Assembly: GCA_019455325.1 (NCBI GenBank)
Contig: JACFMQ010000012.1
Coordinates: 33,031-97,030 of the forward strand
DNA: 64,000 bases
Origin: Rhodocyclaceae bacterium
GTDB lineage: Bacteria > Pseudomonadota > Gammaproteobacteria > Burkholderiales > Rhodocyclaceae
Reading direction: 5' to 3'
The notes under the pieces were generated by a model that had not been told where the DNA came from, did not search any database, and saw only the letters and a list, made by a program, of their open reading frames with translations. The position numbers were made by a program, and so were the translations under genes. Below, in pieces: positions 49,657 through 62,314 of the stretch (position 1 is the stretch's first letter; each line of letters opens with the position of its first letter).

Positions 49657-49809
49657 TTTTGCGCCGGACAGACGACGACTCCGGCAGTCCAGATGGTAGA
49701 TTGACAGGTTTCGCCCGATTTTTCCTGCTGCGGGCGGCGATGAAATGAAATATGCAACGCAGATATGCGGCGCTACGGGTGCATTTGTATCATATCCAAG
49801 GAGATGATC
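49657..49809. promoter_or_regulatory. AT-rich control region between the HD-GYP and HTH-EAL-HDOD genes
   Basis: A 153-base divergent gap that is much more AT-rich than the surroundings. It holds two direct copies of ATATGC (49750-49755 and 49763-49768), a TATCAT possible -10 near 49788, and AAGGAG at 49798-49803. The direct repeats are candidate sites for the MerR/excisionase-like HTH of the rightward gene. Confidence 0.4.
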
Positions 49810-51327
49810 TTGACCAAGATGAAAAAAATGATAACATCGGCAAATATGGAAACGCAAACCGCCCGGCAGCTTTCAGTCGTCGCCCCCGATATCGGGGGCG
49901 CGGCGTCGGTGTATTCCACCCGCGAGGCGAGCGAAATCCTCGGCGTTTCGCTGCGCACGGTGCAGCTCTGGGTGGACAGCGGCGTCCTGGAGGCGTGGAA
50001 GACCGTCGGCGGGCATCGCCGCATCAGCCGCGCCTCGGTCGAAGCGCTGCTCAGGGGCGGCGCCACCGCCGGCCGCGAGGCGGAAGCCGCCGCGCCGGAC
50101 GCAGCCTCGCCGCTCTTGGCCTACCAGCCGATCTTCGACCGCGAGAACCGCCCCTTCGGCTACGAACTGCTCTACCGGCACGGCGGCCTCGACGCGGCCC
50201 GCATCGAGGACCCGGTCGGCGCCACTTCCCGCGTCATCCAGGTCGCCTTCGGCGAACTCGGGCTCCTCGGCGCGGTCGGCGATGCGCTCTGCTTCGTCAA
50301 CGTCGAGGAGGAGATGCTCGGCGAAGACATCCTGCTCGCCCTCGACCCGGAAAAGATCGTCCTCGAACTGCCGGCCGACACCGCGCCCAGCGAGCGCCTG
50401 TACGAACGCTGCTACGCGCTGAAGCGCGCCGGCTTCCGCCTGCTCCTGGAAAACCTGCGCCCGGACAACGGCGCCGAGCAACTGCTGACCATGGTCGATT
50501 TCGTCAAGGTCGACATGCGCCGCGCCGAGGACGCGCGGCACGCCGTCGACCGCCTCGCCGCGATCGCCTGCTCGGCCAAGCTCGTCGCCGGCCGGCTGGA
50601 GACCATGGCCGCCTACGAGACGGCGCGGCGGCTGGGCTACGACTATTTCCAGGGATTCTTCTTCGCCCGCCCGACGGTCAGCCGCGGCCGCCAGATCTCG
50701 CAGCAGAAGATGGTGCTGCTCGACCTCCTGCGCCTGCTGCTGTCCAGCGACGCCGGCAACGCCGAGATCGAACAGCGCCTCAAGCTCGAACCAGCGCTGT
50801 GCCTGAGCCTGCTGCGCCTGGTGAATTCGGCCGCCGCCGGCCTGTCGCGGCGGATCAGCACGATGCGCGAGGTGCTGGTCGTGCTCGGCCGCCAGCGCCT
50901 GTGCCGGTGGATTCAGATCCTGCTCTACGCCAGCGACGACGCCATGTCGGGCGTGCACAACCCGCTGATGCAACTGGCCGCCTTCCGCGGCCGCTTCCTC
51001 GAATACCTGATGGCGCTGCTGCCGGGGCAGGCGGTGCTGAAGGACCAAGCCTTCATGGTCGGCCTCCTGTCGCTCGTCGATGCCTTGCTCGGCGTGCCGC
51101 TCGACCAGGTGCTGGCCAGGCTGCGGCTGGACGACGAGATCGAATCGGCGCTGCTGCGCCGCGAGGGGCTGCTCGGCCAGCTCCTGTCGCTGGTCGAGGC
51201 GCTGGATGCGGAGGACTTCGCCGGCGCCGACGCCGTCGCGGCGCAGTTGCAACTGGATGCGCCGTTCATGCGTCAGGGCATGGTCGAGTCCCTCGGCTGG
51301 AGCAACGCACTGAGCCGGGGCGGATAG
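49810..51327 (+). CDS. HTH-EAL-HDOD three-domain regulatory protein
   Basis: A protein of about 505 residues. Residues about 33-80 are a MerR/excisionase-type helix-turn-helix (YSTREASEILGVSLRTVQLW, then SGVLEAWKTVGGHRRI). Residues about 100-290 are an EAL fold and about 297-457 an HDOD domain (LRLVNSAAAGLSRRISTMREVLVVLG). The EAL signature is degenerate (ELLYR, LLLEN in place of the DDF motif, AGRLET for EGVET), so it probably binds rather than hydrolyses c-di-GMP. Start uncertain: TTG at 49810 has AAGGAG at ideal spacing; ATGs at 49819 and 49846 are alternatives. Confidence 0.82.
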   Translation: MTKMKKMITSANMETQTARQLSVVAPDIGGAASVYSTREASEILGVSLRTVQLWVDSGVLEAWKTVGGHRRISRASVEALLRGGATAGREAEAAAPDAASPLLAYQPIFDRENRPFGYELLYRHGGLDAARIEDPVGATSRVIQVAFGELGLLGAVGDALCFVNVEEEMLGEDILLALDPEKIVLELPADTAPSERLYERCYALKRAGFRLLLENLRPDNGAEQLLTMVDFVKVDMRRAEDARHAVDRLAAIACSAKLVAGRLETMAAYETARRLGYDYFQGFFFARPTVSRGRQISQQKMVLLDLLRLLLSSDAGNAEIEQRLKLEPALCLSLLRLVNSAAAGLSRRISTMREVLVVLGRQRLCRWIQILLYASDDAMSGVHNPLMQLAAFRGRFLEYLMALLPGQAVLKDQAFMVGLLSLVDALLGVPLDQVLARLRLDDEIESALLRREGLLGQLLSLVEALDAEDFAGADAVAAQLQLDAPFMRQGMVESLGWSNALSRGG

Positions 51328-51466
51328 CGGATTTCAAGGGAGGAGGGGAGCGGGTGACGAAAAAAGCGAAAAATCGCATCGTTCGCAGCATGCAGTGCGC
51401 ACCGGCCGGGCGGCGGGGCGTGTCGCCGGCGGCAGGCGGCGGCGCGCCCGGCGCGCGGGGAGCGTC

Positions 51467-52414
51467 ATGTCGGAGCTGTTGAGCAGGATCGACGCCCGCA
51501 CGCGGCTGGCAGGCACCAACAAGCTGGAAATCCTCCTTTTCTCCCTCGGCGAGGACGCTGCCACGGGGCGGCGGGAGACTTTCGGCATCAACGTCTTCAA
51601 GGTGCGCGAGGTGATGCGCACGCCGCCGATCACAGCGGCGCCGGAAATGCCGGCGGCGGTGCAGGGCATGGTCAGCCTGCGCGGCATGCTCGTGCCGGTG
51701 GTCGATCTCGCCTGCTACGCCGGCGTGGCGACCGGCGCGCCGCGCGACATCATGATCGTCACCGAATACAACGGCCACACCCAGGGCTTCCTGGTCGAGG
51801 GCGTGGATACCATCCTGCGCCTCGACTGGAGCCGGATGCGCGTGCCGCCGGAGATGCTCACGGCGCAGATGGGCGGCCTGGTGACGGCCGTCACCGAGCT
51901 GGACGACGGCCGGCTGGTGATGATGATGGACGTCGAGAAGGTGCTCGCCGAAACCGGCGGCTGCGAGAGCGAGGTCATGTACCGCGGCATCGCGCGCCTC
52001 GACCGGCCGGAATGCGTCGTCTACTTCGCCGACGACTCGCTGATCGCCCGCCGGCAGATCGAGCGCACGCTCGAGGCCATGGGCGTGCGCCACGTCGCCG
52101 CGGTCAACGGGCGCCAGCTCTGGGACGCGCTGGAAAAGGCGGCGACGGTCGGCGAGCAGATCAGCCTGGTGCTGACCGACGTCGAGATGCCCGAGATGGA
52201 CGGCTACCTCCTGACGCGCAGGATCAAGGGCGATCTCCGCTTCTCGGAAATCCCGGTGATCATGCACTCGTCGCTGTCCGGCGCCTCGAACCGGTCGCAC
52301 GGCTTCTCGGTCGGCGCCGACGACTACGTGTCGAAGTTCGAGCCGCAGCGGCTCGCCGAGGCGCTGACCCGGCGCCTCGGCGTGGCGCCGGTGAGCGGAG
52401 GCGGCGATGTCTGA
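51467..52414 (+). CDS. cheV: Chemotaxis coupling protein CheV (first copy)
   Basis: A 315-residue CheV. The CheW-like domain (residues about 15-165, [12 protein letters not shown], then MPAAVQGMVSLRG) couples receptors to CheA. A receiver domain (about 182-305) has FADD, phospho-acceptor Asp238 in LTDVEMPEMDG and Lys in YVSKFE. CheV is thought to act as phosphate sink or adaptor. It opens the run of chemotaxis genes and overlaps the second cheV by eight bases. The 139 bases before it hold only a doubtful short frame. Confidence 0.92.
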   Translation: MSELLSRIDARTRLAGTNKLEILLFSLGEDAATGRRETFGINVFKVREVMRTPPITAAPEMPAAVQGMVSLRGMLVPVVDLACYAGVATGAPRDIMIVTEYNGHTQGFLVEGVDTILRLDWSRMRVPPEMLTAQMGGLVTAVTELDDGRLVMMMDVEKVLAETGGCESEVMYRGIARLDRPECVVYFADDSLIARRQIERTLEAMGVRHVAAVNGRQLWDALEKAATVGEQISLVLTDVEMPEMDGYLLTRRIKGDLRFSEIPVIMHSSLSGASNRSHGFSVGADDYVSKFEPQRLAEALTRRLGVAPVSGGGDV

Positions 52415-53342
52415 GCACAGCCGGCTTCTGGAAAGCGTCGATGCGCGCACGCGGCTGGCCGGCTCGAACCGCATGGAAATCCTGCTGTTCTCGCTGGGCA
52501 CGCGCGAAACCTTCGGCATCAACGTCTTCAAGGTGCGCGAGGTCGGCCGCAGCCCGCGCGTCACGCGCACGCCGAACATGCCGGCCGGCGTCGAGGGGCT
52601 GGTCTCGCTGCGCGGCAACGTCATCCCGGTGCTGTCGCTGGCCGACTTCCTGGAGCTCGACGGCCGGCCGCCGGGGCCGGCCGGCGCGATGATGGTCGCC
52701 GAATACTCGCAGCGCACGCTCGGCTTCCTGGTGCACGAGGTCGACCGCATCATCCGCGTCGACTGGGAGCGCGTGCGGGCGCCGGAAACCGCGCTCGCCT
52801 CGAACCGCGGCCTGATCAGCGCGATCGTCGAGCTCGACGACGGCAAGCTGGTGTCGATCCTCGACGTCGAGCAGATCCTCGCCAACGCCTTCGGCGAGGC
52901 GGTCGTCGTCGACATCGCGCCGGTCCGCGGCAGCGGCAGCGTCTTCTTCGCCGACGACTCGATCGTCGCCCGCCGGCAGATCACCGACGTGCTCGACCGG
53001 CTCGGCGTCCGCCACAAGCACGCGAGCAACGGCGCCGAGGCGTGGAGCCGCCTGCAGGCCATCGCCGGCCACGCGCAGCAGACCGGCGGCGAGCTGCGCG
53101 ACGAAATCAGCCTGATCCTGGTCGACGCCGAAATGCCGGAGATGGACGGCTACGTGCTCACCCGCCACATCAAGGGCGACGGCCGCTTCACCGGCATTCC
53201 GGTGGTCATGCACTCGTCGCTGTCTTCCGAGGCCAACCGGGCGATGGGCAAGTCCGTCGGCGTCGACGCCTACGTCGCCAAATTCGCCGCCGAGGCCCTC
53301 GCCGACACCCTGCGCCCGCTGCTCGAACGCCGCGCCGCCTGA
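52407..53342 (+). CDS. cheV: Chemotaxis coupling protein CheV (second copy)
   Basis: A 311-residue CheV with the same CheW-plus-receiver layout as its upstream neighbour, clearly homologous along its whole length (both start with [18 protein letters not shown] sequence). Phospho-acceptor Asp240 in [10 protein letters not shown] and Lys in YVAKFAA are intact. The receiver loop carries a short insertion ([11 protein letters not shown]) absent from the first copy. Start ATG overlaps the first copy by eight bases. Tandem cheV genes suggest different receptor sets or successive adaptation roles. Confidence 0.92.
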
Positions 53343-53376: not shown

Positions 53377-53784
53377 ATGCCCCTCGCCGACCCGACAACC
53401 CGCTTCCTCGTGGTGGACGACTTTTCGACGATGCGCCGCATCGTCCGCAACCTGCTCAAGGATCTCGAATTCACCAACGTCGACGAGGCCGAGGACGGCG
53501 TCGCGGCGCTGCAGAAACTGAGGAACGGCGGCTTCCAGTTCGTCCTCACCGACTGGAACATGCCGAACATGGACGGGCTGGCGCTGCTGCAGAGCATCCG
53601 CGCCACGCCGTCGCTGCGCCACCTGCCGGTGCTGATGATCACCGCCGAGGCGAAGCGGGAGAACATCATCCTCGCCGCCCGGGCCGGCGCCGACGGCTAC
53701 ATCGTCAAACCCTTCACCGGCGCGACGCTGGCCGAAAAGATGAAGAAGATCTTCGACAAGCTGAACGGCGGGGAGCGCACCTGA
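53377..53784 (+). CDS. cheY: Chemotaxis response regulator CheY
   Basis: A 135-residue single-domain regulator. Asp pair VVDD at 14-15, phospho-acceptor Asp59 ([10 protein letters not shown]), Thr89 (MITAEA) and Lys111 (YIVKPF) are all canonical, and the FliM-facing region is CheY-like. Phosphorylated CheY binds the flagellar switch. Directly followed (no gap) by cheZ. Confidence 0.95.
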
Positions 53785-54498
53785 ATGAACCCGTACCACG
53801 TCAGCGTTGCCGGCCGCGATTCCGCCGAGCTGCAAGCCCTCTTCGACAGCGTCGCCGGCCGGGCCGCGCCGCCGTCCTCGCCGGACGGCGCGGCCGAGCG
53901 CACCTTCAACCGCGTCGGCCAGATCATGCGCCAGCTCAACGACGCGCTGCGCGAGCTCGGCTACGACCGGCTGATCGAGCGGACGGCGCAGTCCATGCCC
54001 GACACCCGCGACCGCCTCGCCTACATCGCCAGCCTCACCGAGCAGGCGGCCAGCCGCGTGCTCAACGCCACCGACGTCGCCATGCCGCTGCAGGAGGAAC
54101 TGAGCGCCGGCGCCCGGGCGCTCGGCGCGCGCTGGCGCGAGCTCTACGCCAACCGGCTGTCGGTCGCCGAGTTCAGGGCGCTGGCCGACGACACCGTCGC
54201 CTACCTCGAACAGCGGGTGCCCGCGCACACCGCCGCGACCGGCGAGCAACTGATGAACATCATACTGGCGCAGGACTTCCAGGATTTGACCGGCCAGGTC
54301 ATCAAGAAGATCGTCGCGCTCGCCCAGGGTCTTGAAACGCAGTTGATGACGGTGCTCGTCGACCTGCTGCCGGAGGAGCGCCGCAGCGCCGAGGTCGACG
54401 GCCTGCTCAACGGCCCGGCGATCGGTACGGCGGCCGACGGCGACGCGGCGGTCTCGCAGGCGCAGGTCGACGACCTGCTGAACAGCCTCGGCTTCTAG
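53785..54498 (+). CDS. cheZ: CheY-phosphate phosphatase CheZ
   Basis: A 237-residue helical phosphatase. The catalytic region AQDFQDLTGQVIKKIV carries the Asp (167) and Gln (171) that correspond to the E. coli catalytic pair. The C-terminal CheY-binding peptide QVDDLLNSLGF is present after a flexible linker. Begins in the base after the cheY stop. Its presence marks a beta/gamma-type chemotaxis system. Confidence 0.94.
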   Translation: MNPYHVSVAGRDSAELQALFDSVAGRAAPPSSPDGAAERTFNRVGQIMRQLNDALRELGYDRLIERTAQSMPDTRDRLAYIASLTEQAASRVLNATDVAMPLQEELSAGARALGARWRELYANRLSVAEFRALADDTVAYLEQRVPAHTAATGEQLMNIILAQDFQDLTGQVIKKIVALAQGLETQLMTVLVDLLPEERRSAEVDGLLNGPAIGTAADGDAAVSQAQVDDLLNSLGF

Positions 54499-54515: not shown

Positions 54516-56186
54516 ATGAGCGATTTCGCCGGCATGGAAGGTTTGCTCGAGGATTTCCTGCGGGAGGCCGACGACCACCTTTCCGAAGTCGACAGCAAGC
54601 TCGCCGGGCTCGAACGCGCGCCCGACGATCTCGACCTGCTCGACGACATCTTCTGCAGCTTCCTGACGATCAAGGGCGGCGCCGGCCTCCTCGACGCCGG
54701 GGCGCTGGTGACGCTGTGCCAGCTCACCGGGCGCCTGTTCGACCGCCTGCGCAGCGGCCGGCTCCGGCTCGACGCCGCGCTCTTGGAGGCGGTCATGGAG
54801 GCCACGCGCGACGCGCGCCGGATGCTCGACGAACTCGCCCAAGGCCGGCGGCCGCGTCCGGCGCCGGCGGCGGTGCTCGACGCCCTGCGCCGCGCCATCG
54901 CCGGCGAAACGGCGCCGGTCGCCGTCGTCCGGAGGCGCCGCGCCGATGACCGGCCGGGCGGATCCGCCGGCCGCCGCGTCGAGGAACGCGACAGGGACGC
55001 GACGATCCGCGTCGACACGCTCCGCCTCGACCAGGTGCTCAACCTCTCCGGCGAGATCGGCCTGACCAAGAACCGGCTGACCAGCCTGCGCGCCGACATC
55101 CTCGCCGGCCGGACCGATGCCGAGACGCTGCACGCGCTCGACCAGGCGGTCTCGCAGCTCGACCTGCTCGTCTCCGACCTGCAGAGCTCGGTGATGAAGA
55201 CGCGCATGCAGCCGATCGGCCGGCTCTTCCAGAAATACCCGCGCATCGCCCGCGACCTCGCCCGCCAGCTCGGCAAGGACGTGGAGCTGGTGCTCGCCGG
55301 CGAGGAGACGGAGGTCGACAAGACGATGATCGAGGACCTCGCCGACCCGTTGCTCCACCTTATCCGCAACGCCGTCGACCACGGCATCGAGCCGCCGCAC
55401 GAGCGCCTGGCCGCCGGCAAGCCGGAGAAGGGCTCGGTCCGCCTCGAAGCGCGCCAGGAGGGCGACCACATCGTCCTGATCGTCGCCGACGACGGCCGCG
55501 GCATGAGCGCCGAGCGCATCCGCGCCAGGGCCGTCGACAGGGGGCTGATCTCCGAGGAGGAGGCGAGCGGCCTGGACGAGCGGCAGAGCCTGCACCTGAT
55601 CCTGCTGCCGGGCTTCTCGACGAAGACGCAGAGCACCGACGTGTCCGGCCGCGGCGTCGGCATGGACGTGGTCAGGACCAAGGTCCACGGACTCTCCGGC
55701 AGCATCGACCTCCGTTCGGAGGTCGGCCGGGGCTCGCTGATCCTGATCTCGCTGCCGCTGACGCTGGCCATTCTGCCGGTGCTGCTGGTGCAGCTCGGCG
55801 ACCAGCCGTTCGCGCTGCCGCTGTCGCTGGTGCGCGAGATCCTGCCGCTCACCGCCGGCAAGCTGCAGAAAGTGGGCGGCAAGCGCACCTGCGTCGTGCG
55901 CGGCGAGATCCTGCCGGTCATCCCGCTCTCGCGTCTGCTCGGCCGGCCGGAAACCGGCGCGCCGCAGCACGGCGTGCTGATGCAGAGCGGCGAATGCAGC
56001 TTCATCCTCGCCGTCGACAGCTTCGCCGGCCGCGACGACGCGGTCGTCAAGCCGCTGGAGGATTTCCGCCCGCGCGGCGTCGCCGGCGTCACCACCCTCG
56101 CCGACGGCCGGATCGTGCTCATCCTCGACATCAACGAGCTGCTCGGCGACGCCGGCCAGCTATCCGAAAAACGCAAGGCCGCCTGA
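54516..56186 (+). CDS. cheA: CheA-type histidine kinase without phospho-accepting histidine and without P2
   Basis: A 556-residue kinase. P1 (residues about 5-110) reads [11 protein letters not shown], so Leu50 replaces the phosphorylated His (E. coli His48). Of the other residues in that His's network, Lys53 is kept but His67 and Glu70 are Gln69 and Gly72. No P2 CheY-binding domain is present: a short basic linker joins P1 to P3. P4 is intact: [10 protein letters not shown] (N box, about 282), DDGRGM (326), FSTK and GRGVGMDVV (379). A CheW-like P5 follows (about 422-548). The kinase core should bind ATP but cannot phosphorylate its own P1. Confidence 0.9.
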
Positions 56187-56224: not shown

Positions 56225-57913
56225 ATGCAGACCCTGACCTGGAGAATCCGCGGCGCGATGCTGTTGCTGGTCGTCGCCGCCGTCGCCACGCACGTCGACG
56301 GATCGACCGCCGCCCTGCGCGAGCGCGGCATCGGCCTCGCCGCCTTCGCGGCGCTGGCCGCGGCGCTCGGCCTGCTGCTGGAAAGGAGCCTGCGCGCGCG
56401 CCTGTCGCCCCTGCGCGCGACGATCGAAGGCATGTACGCCGACGGCGACCTGACGCGCCGGGCCGAGGTCGACGGCAGGGACGAATTCGCCGCCACCGCC
56501 GCCGCCTTCAACCGGCTGATCGCCAGCTTCCAGACGATCATCGGCAAGGTCTTCTTCAACTCGGCCGAGGTCGCGCGGGCGTCGCAGCAACTGATCGAGG
56601 AGGCGCAGCGCGTCGCCGACGGCTCCGGCCGGCAGCGCGACGCGGCGCAGGCGACGGCGGCAGCGATGACGCAGTTGACGCAGGCCATGGGCGAGGTCAG
56701 CCGGCACGCCGGCGAAACGGCGGAGATCGCCGACGCGGCGAGCCGTTTTTCCGAGGAAGGCATGCGCATCGCCGTCGACGCCACGCGCGAGATGGAGCGG
56801 ATCGCCAGCTCGGTGGCGCAATCCTCCGAGGTCGTGCGCGCGCTCGGCGAGCGTTCCGACGCGATCAGCGGCATCGTGCGGACGATCCGCGAGATCGCCG
56901 ACCAGACCAATCTGCTGGCGCTGAACGCGGCCATCGAAGCGGCGCGCGCCGGTGAACAGGGCCGCGGCTTCGCGGTGGTCGCCGACGAGGTGCGGAAGCT
57001 CGCCGAGCGCACGTCCGCGGCCACCGGCGAGATCGGCCACATGATCTCGGCGATCCAGGGCGAGACGAAGAGCGCCATCACCAGCATCGAGGCCGGCGTC
57101 GGCCAGGCGCAGAACGGCGCCGAGCTGGCGCAGCAGGCCGCCGGCTCGCTGCAGATGATCAACGGCGGCGCCCGGGACACGCGGGAAAAGGTCGGCGCCA
57201 TCGCCGCCGCCGCGGCCGAACAGCGGACGAGCGGCGAGGACATCGCCGGGCACGTGCGCAACATCATGACGATGGCCGGCACCAACAGCGACGCCGCCGG
57301 CCAGGCGCTGCGCGAGGCCGCCCAGCTCGAATACCTCTCGGCCAACCTGAAGGAGATCGGCAACGTCTTCAGGCTCGGCCCGGCCGGCGAGCGGGCGGTC
57401 GAGACGCACGGCCGGATGCCGGACATGGTGCGGCGCGCCGCCGCCGACATCGGGCAATTGCTCGACCAGGCGGTCGACGCCGGCCGCATCACGCTCGACG
57501 CGCTGTTCGACGAGACCTACCGGCCGGTCCCCGGCACCCGGCCGCAGAAATACAAGACGCGCTTCGACGACTTCACGGACCAGACGGTGACGCCGATCCA
57601 GGAGGCGCTGGTCGAGCGGCATCCCTGGCTGTTCTACGCCATCTGCTGCGACCGCAGGGGCTACGTGCCGACGCACAACCGGCGCTTCGCGCAGCCGCTG
57701 ACCGGCGACGAGAAGACCGACTTCGTCGGCAACCGCAGCAAGCGCATCTTCGACGACCCGACCGGCCGCCGCTGCGGCAGCCACGAGCAGCCCTTCCTGC
57801 TGCAGACCTACCGGCGCGACACCGGCGAGGTCATGCACGACATCTCGGCGCCGATCTACGTCAAGGGCCGCCACTGGGGCGGCTTCCGCATCGGCTACGG
57901 CACCGAGGTCTAG
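56225..57913 (+). CDS. Chemoreceptor with C-terminal Cache-like sensor domain
   Basis: A 562-residue MCP. The N-terminal part is short: two helices (about 9-25 and 36-52) with only a tiny loop between, so no periplasmic sensor. HAMP and a signalling hairpin with [20 protein letters not shown] follow (about 55-375). The last 165 residues resemble a Cache-type ligand-binding fold ([55 protein letters not shown]), placed in the cytoplasm after the signalling domain. Suggests sensing of an internal ligand or of metabolism. Confidence 0.87.
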
Positions 57914-57957: not shown

Positions 57958-59979
57958 ATGTTGAAGGGGGTATTCCGGCCCGCCACGGCGCTGATGTCCT
58001 GCATGCGCTACACCTACAAGTTCGCGCTGCTCGGCGCGCTGGCGCTGGTGGCGATGGGCTATCTGCTGTGGCACCTGTACGACGGCCTGAACCACACCAT
58101 CGAGGCGGCGGCGGCGAAGCTCGACGGCGTCGCCCTGGTCGAGCGCTCGGCCCGCATCGTGCAGGGGGTGCAGCAGCACCGCGGCCTTTCGTCCGGCGTG
58201 CTCAGCGGCGACGCGTCGCTGCGCGACAGGCGGGCCGCCAAGGAGAAGGAGATCGGCGAGGCGCTGCAGGCGTTCGCCGGGCGGCTGCCGCCGTCGCTCG
58301 CCGGCGACGAGGCGTGGCGCCGCATCGTCGGCGACTGGGAGCGCCTGCGCGGCGGCGTGCTGCAGCTTTCCGCCGCCGACAGCTTCGCCCGCCACACGCA
58401 GTTGATCGACCAGTTGCTCATCTTCCAGATCGCTGCGGCCGACGCCACCAGCCTGACCTTCGACCCCGAGGTCGACGTCTTCTACCTCGTCGACACCGGC
58501 CTGACGCGGCTGCCGGTCGTGCTCGAACGGCTCGGCCAGTTGCGCGCGCTCGGCACCGGCCATCTCGCCGTCAGGCAGATCGGCGACGCGCAGAAGGTGC
58601 GGCTGCACAGCCTGATCGCCGAGATGAACGGCGCGCTGAAGTTCCTGCATCTCAACCTGGACAAGACCGGGCGCTACAACGCCGGCCTCGCCGGCAGCCT
58701 GAAGCAGACGCGCGAGCGCATCGGCAGCGACAGCGAGGCCGTCGTCCGGCTGATCGTCGACGACATCGTCGGCGGCGTCTTCGCGACGGCGCCGGCCGAC
58801 TACTTCGCGCTGACCACGCGGCTGATCGACCTCGGCTACCAGGAGGCCTACGACGTCCTGCTGCCGACGCTGCGCGCGCTGATCGAGGCGCGCGCCGAGC
58901 GTGCGCGCCATCTGCTGCAGGTGGTCCTCGGCGTCGCCGCGGCCATGCTGGCGGCCATCGGCTACCTGTCGGTCGGCGCCTATTTCTCGACGGTGGACAA
59001 CGTCGCCGCGCTGGCGGCGAGCGCCCGGCGCATCGCCGGCGGCGACCTGACGGTGCGTATCGACCTAGCCACGCGCGACGAGCACCGGCTGGTCGCCGAC
59101 AGCTTCAACGAGATCGCCACCGCCTTCTCGCGCCTCCTGAAGAACGTCCAGGGCGGCGCGCACCAGGTGCTGGAGACCGCGCGGAGCATCGCCGAATCGT
59201 CGACGCGGATCGCCGGCAGCTCGTCGCAGCAGAGCGAGTCGGCGGCGGCCATGGCGGCCTCGGTCGAGGAGATGAGCAACGGCGTCGAGCACATCAGCGA
59301 GAACGCCCGCAGCGCGCACGGCGTGACGAGCGAGGCCGGCGACCTGTCGGCGCACGGCGGCCGCATCGTCGGCACGGTCGTCGGCGGCATCGAGAAGATC
59401 GCCGACGCCGTCAACCGGTCGGCGGCGACGATCGAGAACCTCGGCCGGCATTCCGACCGGATCTCGGCGATCGTCGGCGTGATCAAGGAAATCGCCGACC
59501 AGACCAACCTGCTGGCGCTGAACGCGGCGATCGAGGCGGCGCGCGCCGGCGAATCCGGGCGCGGCTTCGCGGTGGTCGCCGACGAGGTGAGAAAGCTCGC
59601 CGAGCGCACGGCGAAGTCCACGCAGGAGATCACCGAGATGATCGGCGCCATCCAGCACGGCACGCGGGACGCCGTCGCCAGCATGCAGGACGGCGTCGAC
59701 CGCGTCGCCGAGGGCGTCGAACTGGCGCATCGGGCCGGCGACGCGATGCAGCGCATCGAGGAGGGCGCGCGCCAGGCGGTGGCGATGGTCAGCGACATCT
59801 CGGCGGCGCTGCACGAGCAGAGCGCCGCCGGCACGCAGATTTCGCAGAACGTCGAGGTCATCGCCCGCATGGCCGAGGAGAACAGCAGCGCCGTCGCCCG
59901 CAACGCCGCCACCACCGGGCGGCTGGAGGAACTGGCGGCGATGCTGGAGGCCGAGGTGAAGCCGTACCGGATCGCCTGA
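57958..59979 (+). CDS. Methyl-accepting chemotaxis protein with NIT-like sensor (second copy)
   Basis: A 673-residue full-length paralogue of the receptor at 7748-9766, with the same N-terminus pattern ([11 protein letters not shown]), the NIT signature [14 protein letters not shown], a second membrane helix (about 320-345), HAMP and a signalling hairpin with [20 protein letters not shown]. The periplasmic domains differ clearly, so the two may bind different anions. It lies within the chemotaxis cluster, 44 bases after the previous receptor, with AGGGAGAGGGGGAG upstream of its ATG. Confidence 0.9.
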
Positions 59980-60018: not shown

Positions 60019-61134
60019 ATGTTTTTTCCGAGAAAAACCGGCGCCGAAGCCGACAGGCGGATCGCCGAACTGGCCGCCGAGAACGAGGCGCTGCGCCAGA
60101 GGGCGGGCGAGCTGGAGGAGACGCTTGCCGCCTGCCGCAGCGAGTGCGACGAGACGAGCAGGAAGCTCGCCGACTGGGGTCGGCTGCTGCAGAACATGGA
60201 GCGCTTCGGCGCAAGCCTCGCCAGCACGCAGCAGACGATGGCCGGCATGGCGCAGACGCTGAAGCGCGAGAAGACGGAGGCGCAGGAGGCCGGCGAGATC
60301 ACCAACGGCAGCCGCGACATGATGCATCACATCAGCCGCAACCTCGGCGCGCTGTCCGACTACTCGCGGCAGACGATGACGACGGTCGAGGGGCTGAACG
60401 CCAACACCGAGCAGATCGGCGGCATCCTCGATCTGATCAAGGAGATCGCCGACCAGACCAACCTGCTGGCGCTGAATGCGGCGATCGAGGCGGCGCGCGC
60501 CGGCGAGGCCGGCCGCGGCTTCGCGGTGGTCGCCGACGAAGTCCGCAAGCTCGCCGAGCGCACGGCCAAGGCGACCAGCGAGATCGGCGCGCTGGTCACG
60601 ACGATCCAGCGCGACACGCACCAGGCGAAGGCCGGCATCGAGGCGCTCGCCGGCCGCGCCGACTCGGTCGGCAGCGACGGCGCCAAGGCGACCGAGAGCC
60701 TGGAGAACATCCTCGCCCTGTCGCAGAAGGTCGAGAGCGCGATCGCGCTGGCGGCGCTGCGCAGCTTCACCGAGCTCGCCAAGCTCGACCATTCGGTGTT
60801 CAAGTTCGAGGTCTACAAGGTCTTCATGGGCGTCTCGGAGAAGGGCGCCGACGACTTCGCGAACCACACCGCCTGCCGGCTCGGCAAGTGGTACTACGAG
60901 GGCGAGGGCAAGCACTGCTTCGCGAAGTTCGACGGCTACGCGGCGATGGAAGCACCGCACATCGCCGTGCACCGGCACGGCCGCGACGCGCTCGCCGCCT
61001 ATGCCGCCGGCGACTTCGCCGCCGGCAACCGGGCGCTCGAACAGATGGAGGCGGCGAGCCTCGAGGTGCTCGCCTGTCTCGAACGGATGGCGGTCTGCGG
61101 CGAGAGCCATCCGGAAATCCGCTGCGCGGCATGA
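60019..61134 (+). CDS. Cytoplasmic chemoreceptor with CZB zinc-binding domain
   Basis: A 371-residue soluble receptor without membrane segments. An N-terminal coiled coil (about 10-60) precedes a short signalling hairpin with [20 protein letters not shown] (about 140-160). A C-terminal CZB domain (about 254-350) carries the zinc-ligand pattern: His in [12 protein letters not shown], Cys in [15 protein letters not shown], and His residues in [13 protein letters not shown] domains in receptors and in DgcZ bind zinc and respond to zinc or hypochlorous acid. Likely reports an internal state to the same kinase. Confidence 0.88.
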
Positions 61135-61180: not shown

Positions 61181-62314
61181 GTGGTCGGCCTGATCCGCAT
61201 CCGCCGTTCGGACATCGAAATCGGTCGGCCGATCCGTCATTCGGTCTACGACGAACACGGCCGGCTGCTGCTGCGCGCCGGCATGTCGATCACCATTCCG
61301 CGCTATCTCGACGCCCTGCTGGCGCAGGGCGCCTACTTCGACCGGGCCGAGGTCGAGCTTGGCCGGCTGGCGGCGCCGAACGCGGCGGACGAACCGTCGG
61401 TGTTCGAGCGGGTGGAGAAGCTGCTGCTCAACCTGAAGCACGTCTATGCCACCTTCTTCCGCGAGCCGGCGCGCATCGACCTGCAGAAGCACATCCGGCA
61501 GATGGCCGGGCAGTTGATGGCGGCCTGCGGCGAGGACGGCGACGCGGCGCTGGCCGCGCTCCACCTCGACCAGGCGGCGCCGTACCGCATCCACCACCAG
61601 TTGCTGTGCGCGACCGTCGTCGAGCTGACGGCGCAGACCCTCGGCGTGCCGGAGGCCGACCGGCTGGCGCTGGTGTGCGCGGCGCTGACGCACGATCTGG
61701 CGCTGAGCGAGGCCGACGACGCGCTGGAAAAGGCCCGCCCGCCGCTGTCGTTCGAGCAGCGCGCCCGCGTGCGCGAGCATCCGCTGCGGAGCGTCGCCAT
61801 CCTCGCCGGCGACTGCGGCGTCACCGACGCCGCCTGGCTCGACGCCGTCGCCCAGCACCACGAGCGGATGGACGGCAGCGGCTATCCGCTCGGCGCGCGC
61901 GGCGACGGCATCGGCCTCGGCGGCCGCCTGCTGGCGATCGCCGACGTCTATGCGGCGATGATCCGGTCGCGGCCGTATCGCGGCAACGCCTTCTTTCCGC
62001 AGAACGTGCTGCGCGACCTCTTCGCCGGCCAGCACAAGTACGTACCCGAGCTGGTGCAGGCACTGGCCGGGAGCATCGGGCTGATGCCGCCGGGCAGCAT
62101 CGTGCGCCTGCAGAACAACGAGATCGGCGTCGTCCGCACGCGCGGCGGCGCCGCCGGCCCGCGCGTCTTCGCCGTCTATACGCCGGCCGGCATGCCGCTC
62201 CTGAAACCGCTCGAACGCGACATCCGCAGCCCTGCCTTCGCCGTCGCCGGCAAGGCCAGCCTCGACGAATGCCGCGCCGCGGAAATCGTCATGCGGCGCC
62301 TGTGGACGGCGTGA
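61181..62314 (+). CDS. Degenerate HD-GYP domain protein
   Basis: A 377-residue protein starting at GTG (61181), 46 bases after the CZB receptor. An N-terminal stretch ([21 protein letters not shown]) resembles that of HD-GYP proteins. In the HD-GYP region the metal HD is kept (LTHDLAL), but the canonical HDIGK has become HDLAL and the KPGKLT loop is lost. [14 protein letters not shown] and ADVYAA remain. It may therefore be a c-di-GMP-binding or impaired phosphodiesterase. No better start is apparent; the ribosome site is weak. Confidence 0.82.

Follow-up and report, generated by a model that had tools for sequence, protein, structure and literature searches.

A second che block in a Rhodocyclaceae genome encodes a CheA with leucine at the P1 phosphorylation site and a largely conserved kinase core

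The CheA protein described here has a leucine (Leu50) in place of the phosphorylated histidine of its P1 domain, and its dimerization (P3), kinase (P4) and CheW-like (P5) domains have kept most of the residues that are invariant among its relatives. The gene is located in the window, the stretch of 64,000 nucleotides analyzed here (C10:33031-97030). A close paralog with an intact P1 is found on C2, another contig of the same genome (G000; 4.46 Mb in 31 contigs, with an estimated contamination of 2.03%). From the sequences, we consider the chances even that this second che block encodes a kinase-competent CheA with a dead P1, which acts in trans on the intact paralog. A further reading, held tentatively and at somewhat under even chances, is that a split or short CheA kinase is caught here in the course of its evolution, with the phosphotransfer half eroded and the dimerization and kinase half held by gene conversion and purifying selection.

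Table 1. Features of the che block and its borders in the window (positions are those of the window; invariants are positions constant among the orthologs)
Feature	Position	Strand	Remarks
HTH-EAL-HDOD gene	49765..51327	+	left border of che block
cheV1 (CheW + receiver)	51464..52414	+	2/119 invariants changed
cheV2 (CheW + receiver)	52407..53342	+	3/122 invariants changed
cheY	53377..53784	+	1/59 invariants changed
cheZ	53785..54498	+	2/49 invariants changed
cheA, P1-dead	54516..56186	+	556 aa, open frame
P1	54516..54851	+	residues 1-112
codon 50, CTG (Leu)	54663..54665	+	phospho-accepting His in relatives
shortened linker	54852..54995	+	about residues 113-160
P3 dimerization domain	54996..55205	+	about residues 161-230
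identical 150-nt tract shared with C2 cheA	55187..55336	+	codons 224-274, end of P3 into P4
P4 kinase domain	55206..55769	+	about residues 231-418
P5 CheW-like domain	55770..56183	+	about residues 419-556
MCP1	56228..57913	+	ortholog of the MCP upstream of cheV1 in genus-mates
MCP2 (HAMP + signaling domain)	57958..59979	+	
MCP with CZB zinc-binding domain	60019..61134	+	
HD-domain gene	61196..62314	+	right border of che block, start not determined

The cheA frame is open from its ATG (54516) to its TGA (56184-56186). Hpt, H-kinase_dim, HATPase_c and CheW domains are all detected in the protein with Pfam, and no curated cut-off was passed in a scan with NCBIfam. The Hpt score is 29.8 bits (cut-off 24.6), in comparison to 64.3 bits for the C2 paralog. 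The residues His281, Asn285, Asp288, Asp326, Phe367 and Gly380, which we take to belong to the N, G1, F and G2 boxes, are the same in all 56 aligned relatives. The sequence-only reading had described these boxes and the CheW-like domain as intact, and this agrees with the residues checked, except that the first Phe of the F box is Leu363, a change common to 9 of the 56 relatives. P3, P4 and P5 with the four boxes are present, and a P1 with a phosphorylatable His is not. Judged by its sequence, the protein counts as a CheA through its ancestry and not through a complete set of functions. A full-length model was of modest quality (pLDDT 76.7, pTM 0.40) and was left out of the conclusions.

The loss of the phospho-acceptor, first noted from the sequence alone, is confirmed by the alignment of P1 with that of the relatives. 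His is found at position 50 in 56 of 56 relatives, and Leu in the window CheA alone. Only the Lys is left of the surrounding network, as had also been noted: residues 50, 53, 69 and 72 are Leu, Lys, Gln and Gly in the window CheA, and His, Lys, His and Glu in every one of the relatives. The HMMER alignment places LTIKGGAG of the window protein opposite HSIKGGAG of E. coli CheA (6s1k). The CheA on C2 and the flagellar CheAs of the family have the His in motifs like FRGFHT[IV]KGGAGF. A further 60 sites were fetched from family genomes, some of which may be shared with the 56 relatives; P1 is readable in 59 of them, with His in all 59, and the remaining one is ended by a contig edge. In a set of 80 related CheA loci that overlaps with the 56 relatives, P1 is present in 77, always with His (76 by motif, L102 by alignment); no P1 was seen in L101, L128 and L136, where the match starts within 62-295 bases of the locus start. 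Residues 1-160 of the window CheA contain a single His (His21), and no nearby replacement acceptor is therefore evident.

The earlier statement that a change from His to Leu needs at least two base changes is incorrect, as one can suffice. From the CAT and CAC codons of the six genus copies, CTG does require two. A single read error had rightly been considered unlikely, and the 14 altered invariant positions of P1 within an open frame provide a stronger ground for this. P1 of the window CheA shares 59-60% identity with the P1 domains of the six genus copies; between the latter, the identity is 91-98%. With AlphaFold2, this P1 is predicted as a confident helical bundle (mean pLDDT 96.3) with the P1 fold kept, although the alignment used was built from relatives with intact P1 and favors this outcome. 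The best matches of the predicted structure in the PDB are CheA P1 domains.

The linker that follows P1 has been shortened by over half, to 50 residues in the window CheA as compared to at least 103 residues in the relatives (53 of 56 could be parsed). A motif of the type PDWxxLHxAVTG, found by regular expression in 48 of the 56 relatives, is missing from it. This motif is possibly a dock for response regulators in place of P2, and the comparison between the window CheA and its relatives makes this testable. P2 had been described as absent, and none is found in the window CheA. A loss of P2 was rejected, however, since no P2 model is matched in either of the two relatives scanned, the C2 paralog and L072, and the lack of this domain is ordinary in the family.

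To locate the loss of constraint within the protein, positions that are constant in 56 other CheAs were taken as invariant, and the changes at these positions in the window CheA were counted. P1 has changed at 14 of 49 positions, P3 at 0 of 31, P4 at 5 of 77 and P5 at 0 of 29, which gives 5 of 137 for P3-P5 together. Without the tract shared with C2 (see below), the counts are 14/49 for P1 and 5/96 for the rest (Fisher p 1.7e-4), and when another possible tract, located in P5, is left out as well, the rest has 5/83 (p 6e-4). The record of P3 is due in part to the converted tract, which covers part of this domain; outside the tract, P3 keeps 18 of 18 invariant positions and P4 44 of 49. In leave-one-out controls with the 56 relatives, the changes in P1 have a median of 0 and reach at most 6/55, in L088, the most diverged row, which has also changed at 9/38 positions in P5 and 6/37 in P3. 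The partner proteins CheV1, CheV2, CheY and CheZ together have changed at 8 of 349 invariant positions (based on 31, 32, 35 and 34 orthologs, respectively), and MCP1 at 10 of 195, with merely 7 orthologs. By the invariant-position test, P1 is the part of the window CheA that has been freed from constraint. The identity to the six genus copies is 89-90% in P3, 82-84% in P4 and 72% in P5.

With the NG86 method, dS between the window and C2 copies of cheA is 0.32 (0.31 between C2 and G001) and dN/dS is 0.58 (0.14 between C2 and G001). The pairwise dN/dS between window and C2 reaches 0.77 for cheZ, still below 1. As most of the amino-acid change is found on the window branch, we estimate that the ratio of this branch alone may, by the same count, be nearer to 1. 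When the very high GC3 (0.946) is taken into account by a codon model, dN/dS of cheA is 0.16 on the window branch and 0.022 in the background; for cheV1, cheV2, cheY, cheZ and mcp1, it is 0.10-0.26 on the window branch against 0.017-0.051. With shared branch lengths, the window-branch ratio is 0.245 for P1 and 0.126 for the rest of CheA (p 5e-4 to 6e-4, depending on the topology), both significantly below 1. Relative to their own backgrounds, these ratios are raised 10.6-fold and 10.2-fold, respectively. P1 and the rest are thus equally relaxed by this measure, and the argument for a loss specific to P1 comes from the invariant positions instead of this ratio. Across the genes and domains, the increase over the background is between 2.9- and 22-fold, with 58-fold in a short fit of P3 over a tiny background; the fit of P1 alone was unstable, with an implausible branch length of 4.5. 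By these fits, the whole che block evolves fast, P1 is the fastest part in absolute terms, and no fitted part is neutral. Some constraint is retained in P1. In neutral simulations of the five che genes (1639 codons), stops averaged 6.5, 10.4 and 14.8 at 0.08, 0.13 and 0.20 substitutions per site, and at none of these levels was any of the 300 runs free of stops. The window cheA shows none of the marks of a pseudogene (stops, frameshifts or neutral dN/dS).

The genome search for a CheA with an intact P1, proposed in the sequence-only reading, finds the close paralog on C2 as well as further CheA and Hpt proteins. The paralog (C2:3741-5624, minus strand) is the closest other CheA and carries FRGFHTVKGGAGF. 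The genome thus offers a P1 from the same family as a potential acceptor. The two proteins are 74% identical overall and 90% in P3, where this degree of identity is only permissive for a heterodimer. On C2, the gene order is cheR, cheD, cheB, a presumably STAS-like frame, cheV1, cheV2, cheY, cheZ and cheA, followed by a frame that presumably resembles FlhB. The order cheV1-cheV2-cheY-cheZ-cheA is the same in the window, on C2 and in the genus-mates. An MCP gene is located immediately upstream of cheV1 in G001, G002 and G004, and no match to it is found on C2 between the STAS-like frame and cheV1. In the window, MCP1, with 65-68% amino-acid identity to this genus MCP, is located downstream of cheA.

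The longest identical run between the window and C2 copies of cheA is 150 nt (Table 1). When the 312 differences are spread at random, a control that takes no account of uneven constraint, the longest run averages 30 and none of 20000 permutations reaches 150. Long runs exist between orthologs as well, with one of 200 nt between the C2 and G001 copies. For codons 221-260, however, the window and C2 copies are 99.2% identical, as compared to 91.7% between C2 and G005 and 93.3% between C2 and G001. Because the paralogs are closer to each other within the tract than the orthologs are, the tract probably reflects a recent gene conversion at the P3/P4 junction of the two cheA copies. The tract also suggests that the two copies share one genome and that their dimerization/kinase junction has recently been made alike.

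The window copy may have arisen by duplication in this lineage or have been acquired from a closely related one. The codon fit favors a window branch outside C2, G001, G002 and G005 (lnL -4934 as compared to -4947 and -4959), a placement for which long-branch attraction is possible. By NG86 synonymous distance, the window is nearest to C2 for cheA and nearest to G001 for cheV2. Homologs of the two border genes, EAL-HDOD and HD-domain, adjoin each other in G002 (C6:105981-107554 and 107675-108769), and the block, together with MCP2 and the MCP with the CZB domain, has therefore probably been inserted between them, as judged from this one genome. The HD-domain gene at the right border is presumably of the HD-GYP type.

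All seven genomes of the genus have a match to the window CheA, and a second copy of this type is found in G000 alone; some of the six other genomes are 65-90% complete. In the family, 250 of 297 genomes (own included) have a match at E <= 1e-150. Among the matches listed, with merely four candidates scored in most of the 297 genomes, two such matches are found only in the own genome and in G149. The latter has two cheV-cheV-cheY-cheZ-cheA blocks (L176 and L177); as both of its CheA copies have the P1 His, it was rejected as a parallel case. A search of 395 genomes from the family, selected out of a larger group and with the own genome among them, gave no further window-type CheA, and no genome but the own had a better match than ordinary CheAs give. 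Besides the own genome, matches at E <= 1e-209 are found only in G018 and G104, both with His.

The window protein is not the only CheA of its genome, a possibility that was considered and rejected: six loci in G000, including that of the window, match it at E <= 1e-60. Besides the window locus and the closest paralog, they comprise a further CheA on each of C2, C19 and C24 and, on C8, a ChpA/PilL-like protein of 1813 residues; the P1/Hpt motifs read in these four have His. The genome yields 21 matches to Hpt, of which 20 exceed the cut-off and several fall within the one C8 protein. No CheA3-like protein (P1 and P5 without P3-P4) was seen among the frames read, which cover a part of these 21 matches and of the 14 matches to CheW. 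The cheA on C24 (L038, G000:C24:444000-463000; 452383-454677) has an in-frame TAG between P1 and the rest, either a sequencing error or real, which splits the gene into a stand-alone Hpt frame and another that encodes the kinase and CheW portions.

CheA proteins without P1 are known but rare. In R. sphaeroides, CheA3 is phosphorylated in trans by CheA4, which has no P1 (PMC3591291), and this bears out the precedent given in the sequence-only reading. One survey lists 4 further species with a CheA4-like set of domains (PMC2829493), and 11 split CheAs stand against 470 complete ones, as cited in PMC3591291. The window CheA is like CheA4 in having kinase, dimerization and P5 domains without a usable P1, and it would have to phosphorylate the P1 of another protein. 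Unlike CheA4, which has no P1 at all, it has a P1 that is present, predicted to be folded, and dead. Moreover, CheA3, the partner of CheA4, lacks P3-P4, whereas the likely partner of the window CheA is a complete CheA. The earlier description as one half of a split kinase fits the presence of a paralog with an intact P1 and the conservation of the P3-P5 invariants, but with a full-length CheA as the likely partner it is apt for function only. The alternative offered with it, an ATP-dependent scaffold for the two CheVs, may apply instead.

In E. coli, CheA-short dimerizes with CheA-long (PMC1447658). Judged from its sequence, the window CheA likewise has a P1 that cannot be phosphorylated and has kept P3-P5. 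CheA-short arises from an internal translation start (codon 98) in the same gene (PMC7696710), in contrast to the window CheA, which is encoded by a separate, diverged gene on another contig. The window CheA also differs in keeping its predicted-folded, dead P1 and in having its own CheV, CheY, CheZ and MCP genes. The arrangement of two CheA paralogs in different operons is shared with CheA1 and CheA4 of A. brasilense, which interact in one array and form mixed clusters, with P3 domains that are 59% similar (PMC6759762). Modeling of E. coli arrays suggests that P1 can reach the P4 domains of neighboring dimers (PMC8064477). All three CheAs of Laribacter are reported to have kept the His (PMC3180692), and in the open-licence PMC literature searched no report was found of a CheA duplicate whose P1 His has been replaced. 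Although neither a CheA-short nor a CheA4, the window CheA probably acts in a similar way. In our best reading, its trans-only state has been reached by duplication and point decay, unlike those two proteins. We know of no clear account of how P1-less CheA subunits arise. An evolutionary intermediate seems visible here, in which a young second copy, its P1 dead but predicted to be folded, stands beside an intact sister gene and shares a conversion tract with it.

In the proposed mechanism, one CheA would have lost its P1 active site and its linker motif after duplication of the che block. The window CheA would not autophosphorylate on its own P1, and would form a heterodimer with the C2 CheA or sit beside it. 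MCP1, MCP2 or the MCP with the CZB domain would activate the window CheA together with the local CheVs, the activated kinase would phosphorylate P1 of the C2 CheA in trans, and the phosphoryl group would then move from this P1 to CheY. In this way, a set of receptors would feed into the flagellar pathway through a window CheA that has no acceptor itself, and the share of this CheA in mixed arrays would set the kinase gain. If true, extra receptors gain control of the flagellar CheA through a dedicated trans-only kinase subunit that is encoded and regulated separately. With the window/C2 pair, it is testable whether the output of mixed arrays rises or falls when a P1-dead CheA is present.

The fast evolution of the whole block keeps a structural role and slow decay as live rivals to this mechanism. 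As a single genome has the second copy, its long-term maintenance would be an assumption, and the loss of 5 of 77 invariant positions in P4 and the 72% identity of P5 also count against this reading. The window CheA could instead be a structural or inhibitory subunit of the array, which holds the MCPs, the CheVs and perhaps CheZ and dilutes the kinase output, with only a conformational role for its ATP site. The full conservation of the invariants in P5 (29/29) and P3 (31/31) is consistent with such a subunit, as are the block's own CheVs, CheZ and MCPs and the localization of CheZ at the array by CheA-short in E. coli (PMC7696710). A pure scaffold would have no need, however, for the checked residues of the ATP site, which are kept, or for the 44 of 49 P4 invariants outside the tract, and we regard this role as unlikely though of appreciable weight. 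Rather unlikely, too, is a redundant block on its way to a pseudogene, in which P1 has merely been the first part to go. Decay would account for the elevation of dN/dS across the five che genes and MCP1, for a P1 that is no more relaxed than the rest of CheA relative to the background, and for a second copy in one of seven genus genomes. It is harder to reconcile with che frames that are open where neutral simulations average 6.5 to 14.8 stops, with codon-model values of dN/dS that are significantly lower than 1 for every part fitted, and with the conservation of most invariants outside P1.

The trans kinase could also have another Hpt target, linking the receptors to a different output through, for example, the P1 of the C19 or C24 protein, the second CheA on C2 or the ChpA-like protein on C8. 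Candidates are available among the 21 Hpt matches, one of which is the stand-alone Hpt frame on C24. The P3-P5 region is 78% identical to that of the flagellar CheA on C2, however, as compared to 36-43% to the other CheAs (over the aligned part), and the neighboring CheY and CheZ belong to the same set as those on C2, which makes such a target improbable. An artefact of assembly or sequencing, or a contaminating contig, might be suspected in a genome of 31 contigs with 2.03% estimated contamination. We consider it highly improbable, given the 14 scattered invariant changes within an open frame and the match of both window flanks to genus-mates at 80-91% DNA identity. The tract identical with C2 moreover puts both copies in one genome or population.

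The receptors show two further features. MCP1 has about 200 residues beyond its signaling domain, for which no Pfam model is found at E <= 1. A C-terminal extension of this length is unusual for an MCP. The genome has 40 matches to the MCP signaling domain, 39 of them over the cut-off. Two of these on C2 have equal scores (195.8 bits), as do two on C24 (127.9 bits), with one on C23 at 127.5 bits, and these near-equal scores suggest recent copies of MCP genes.
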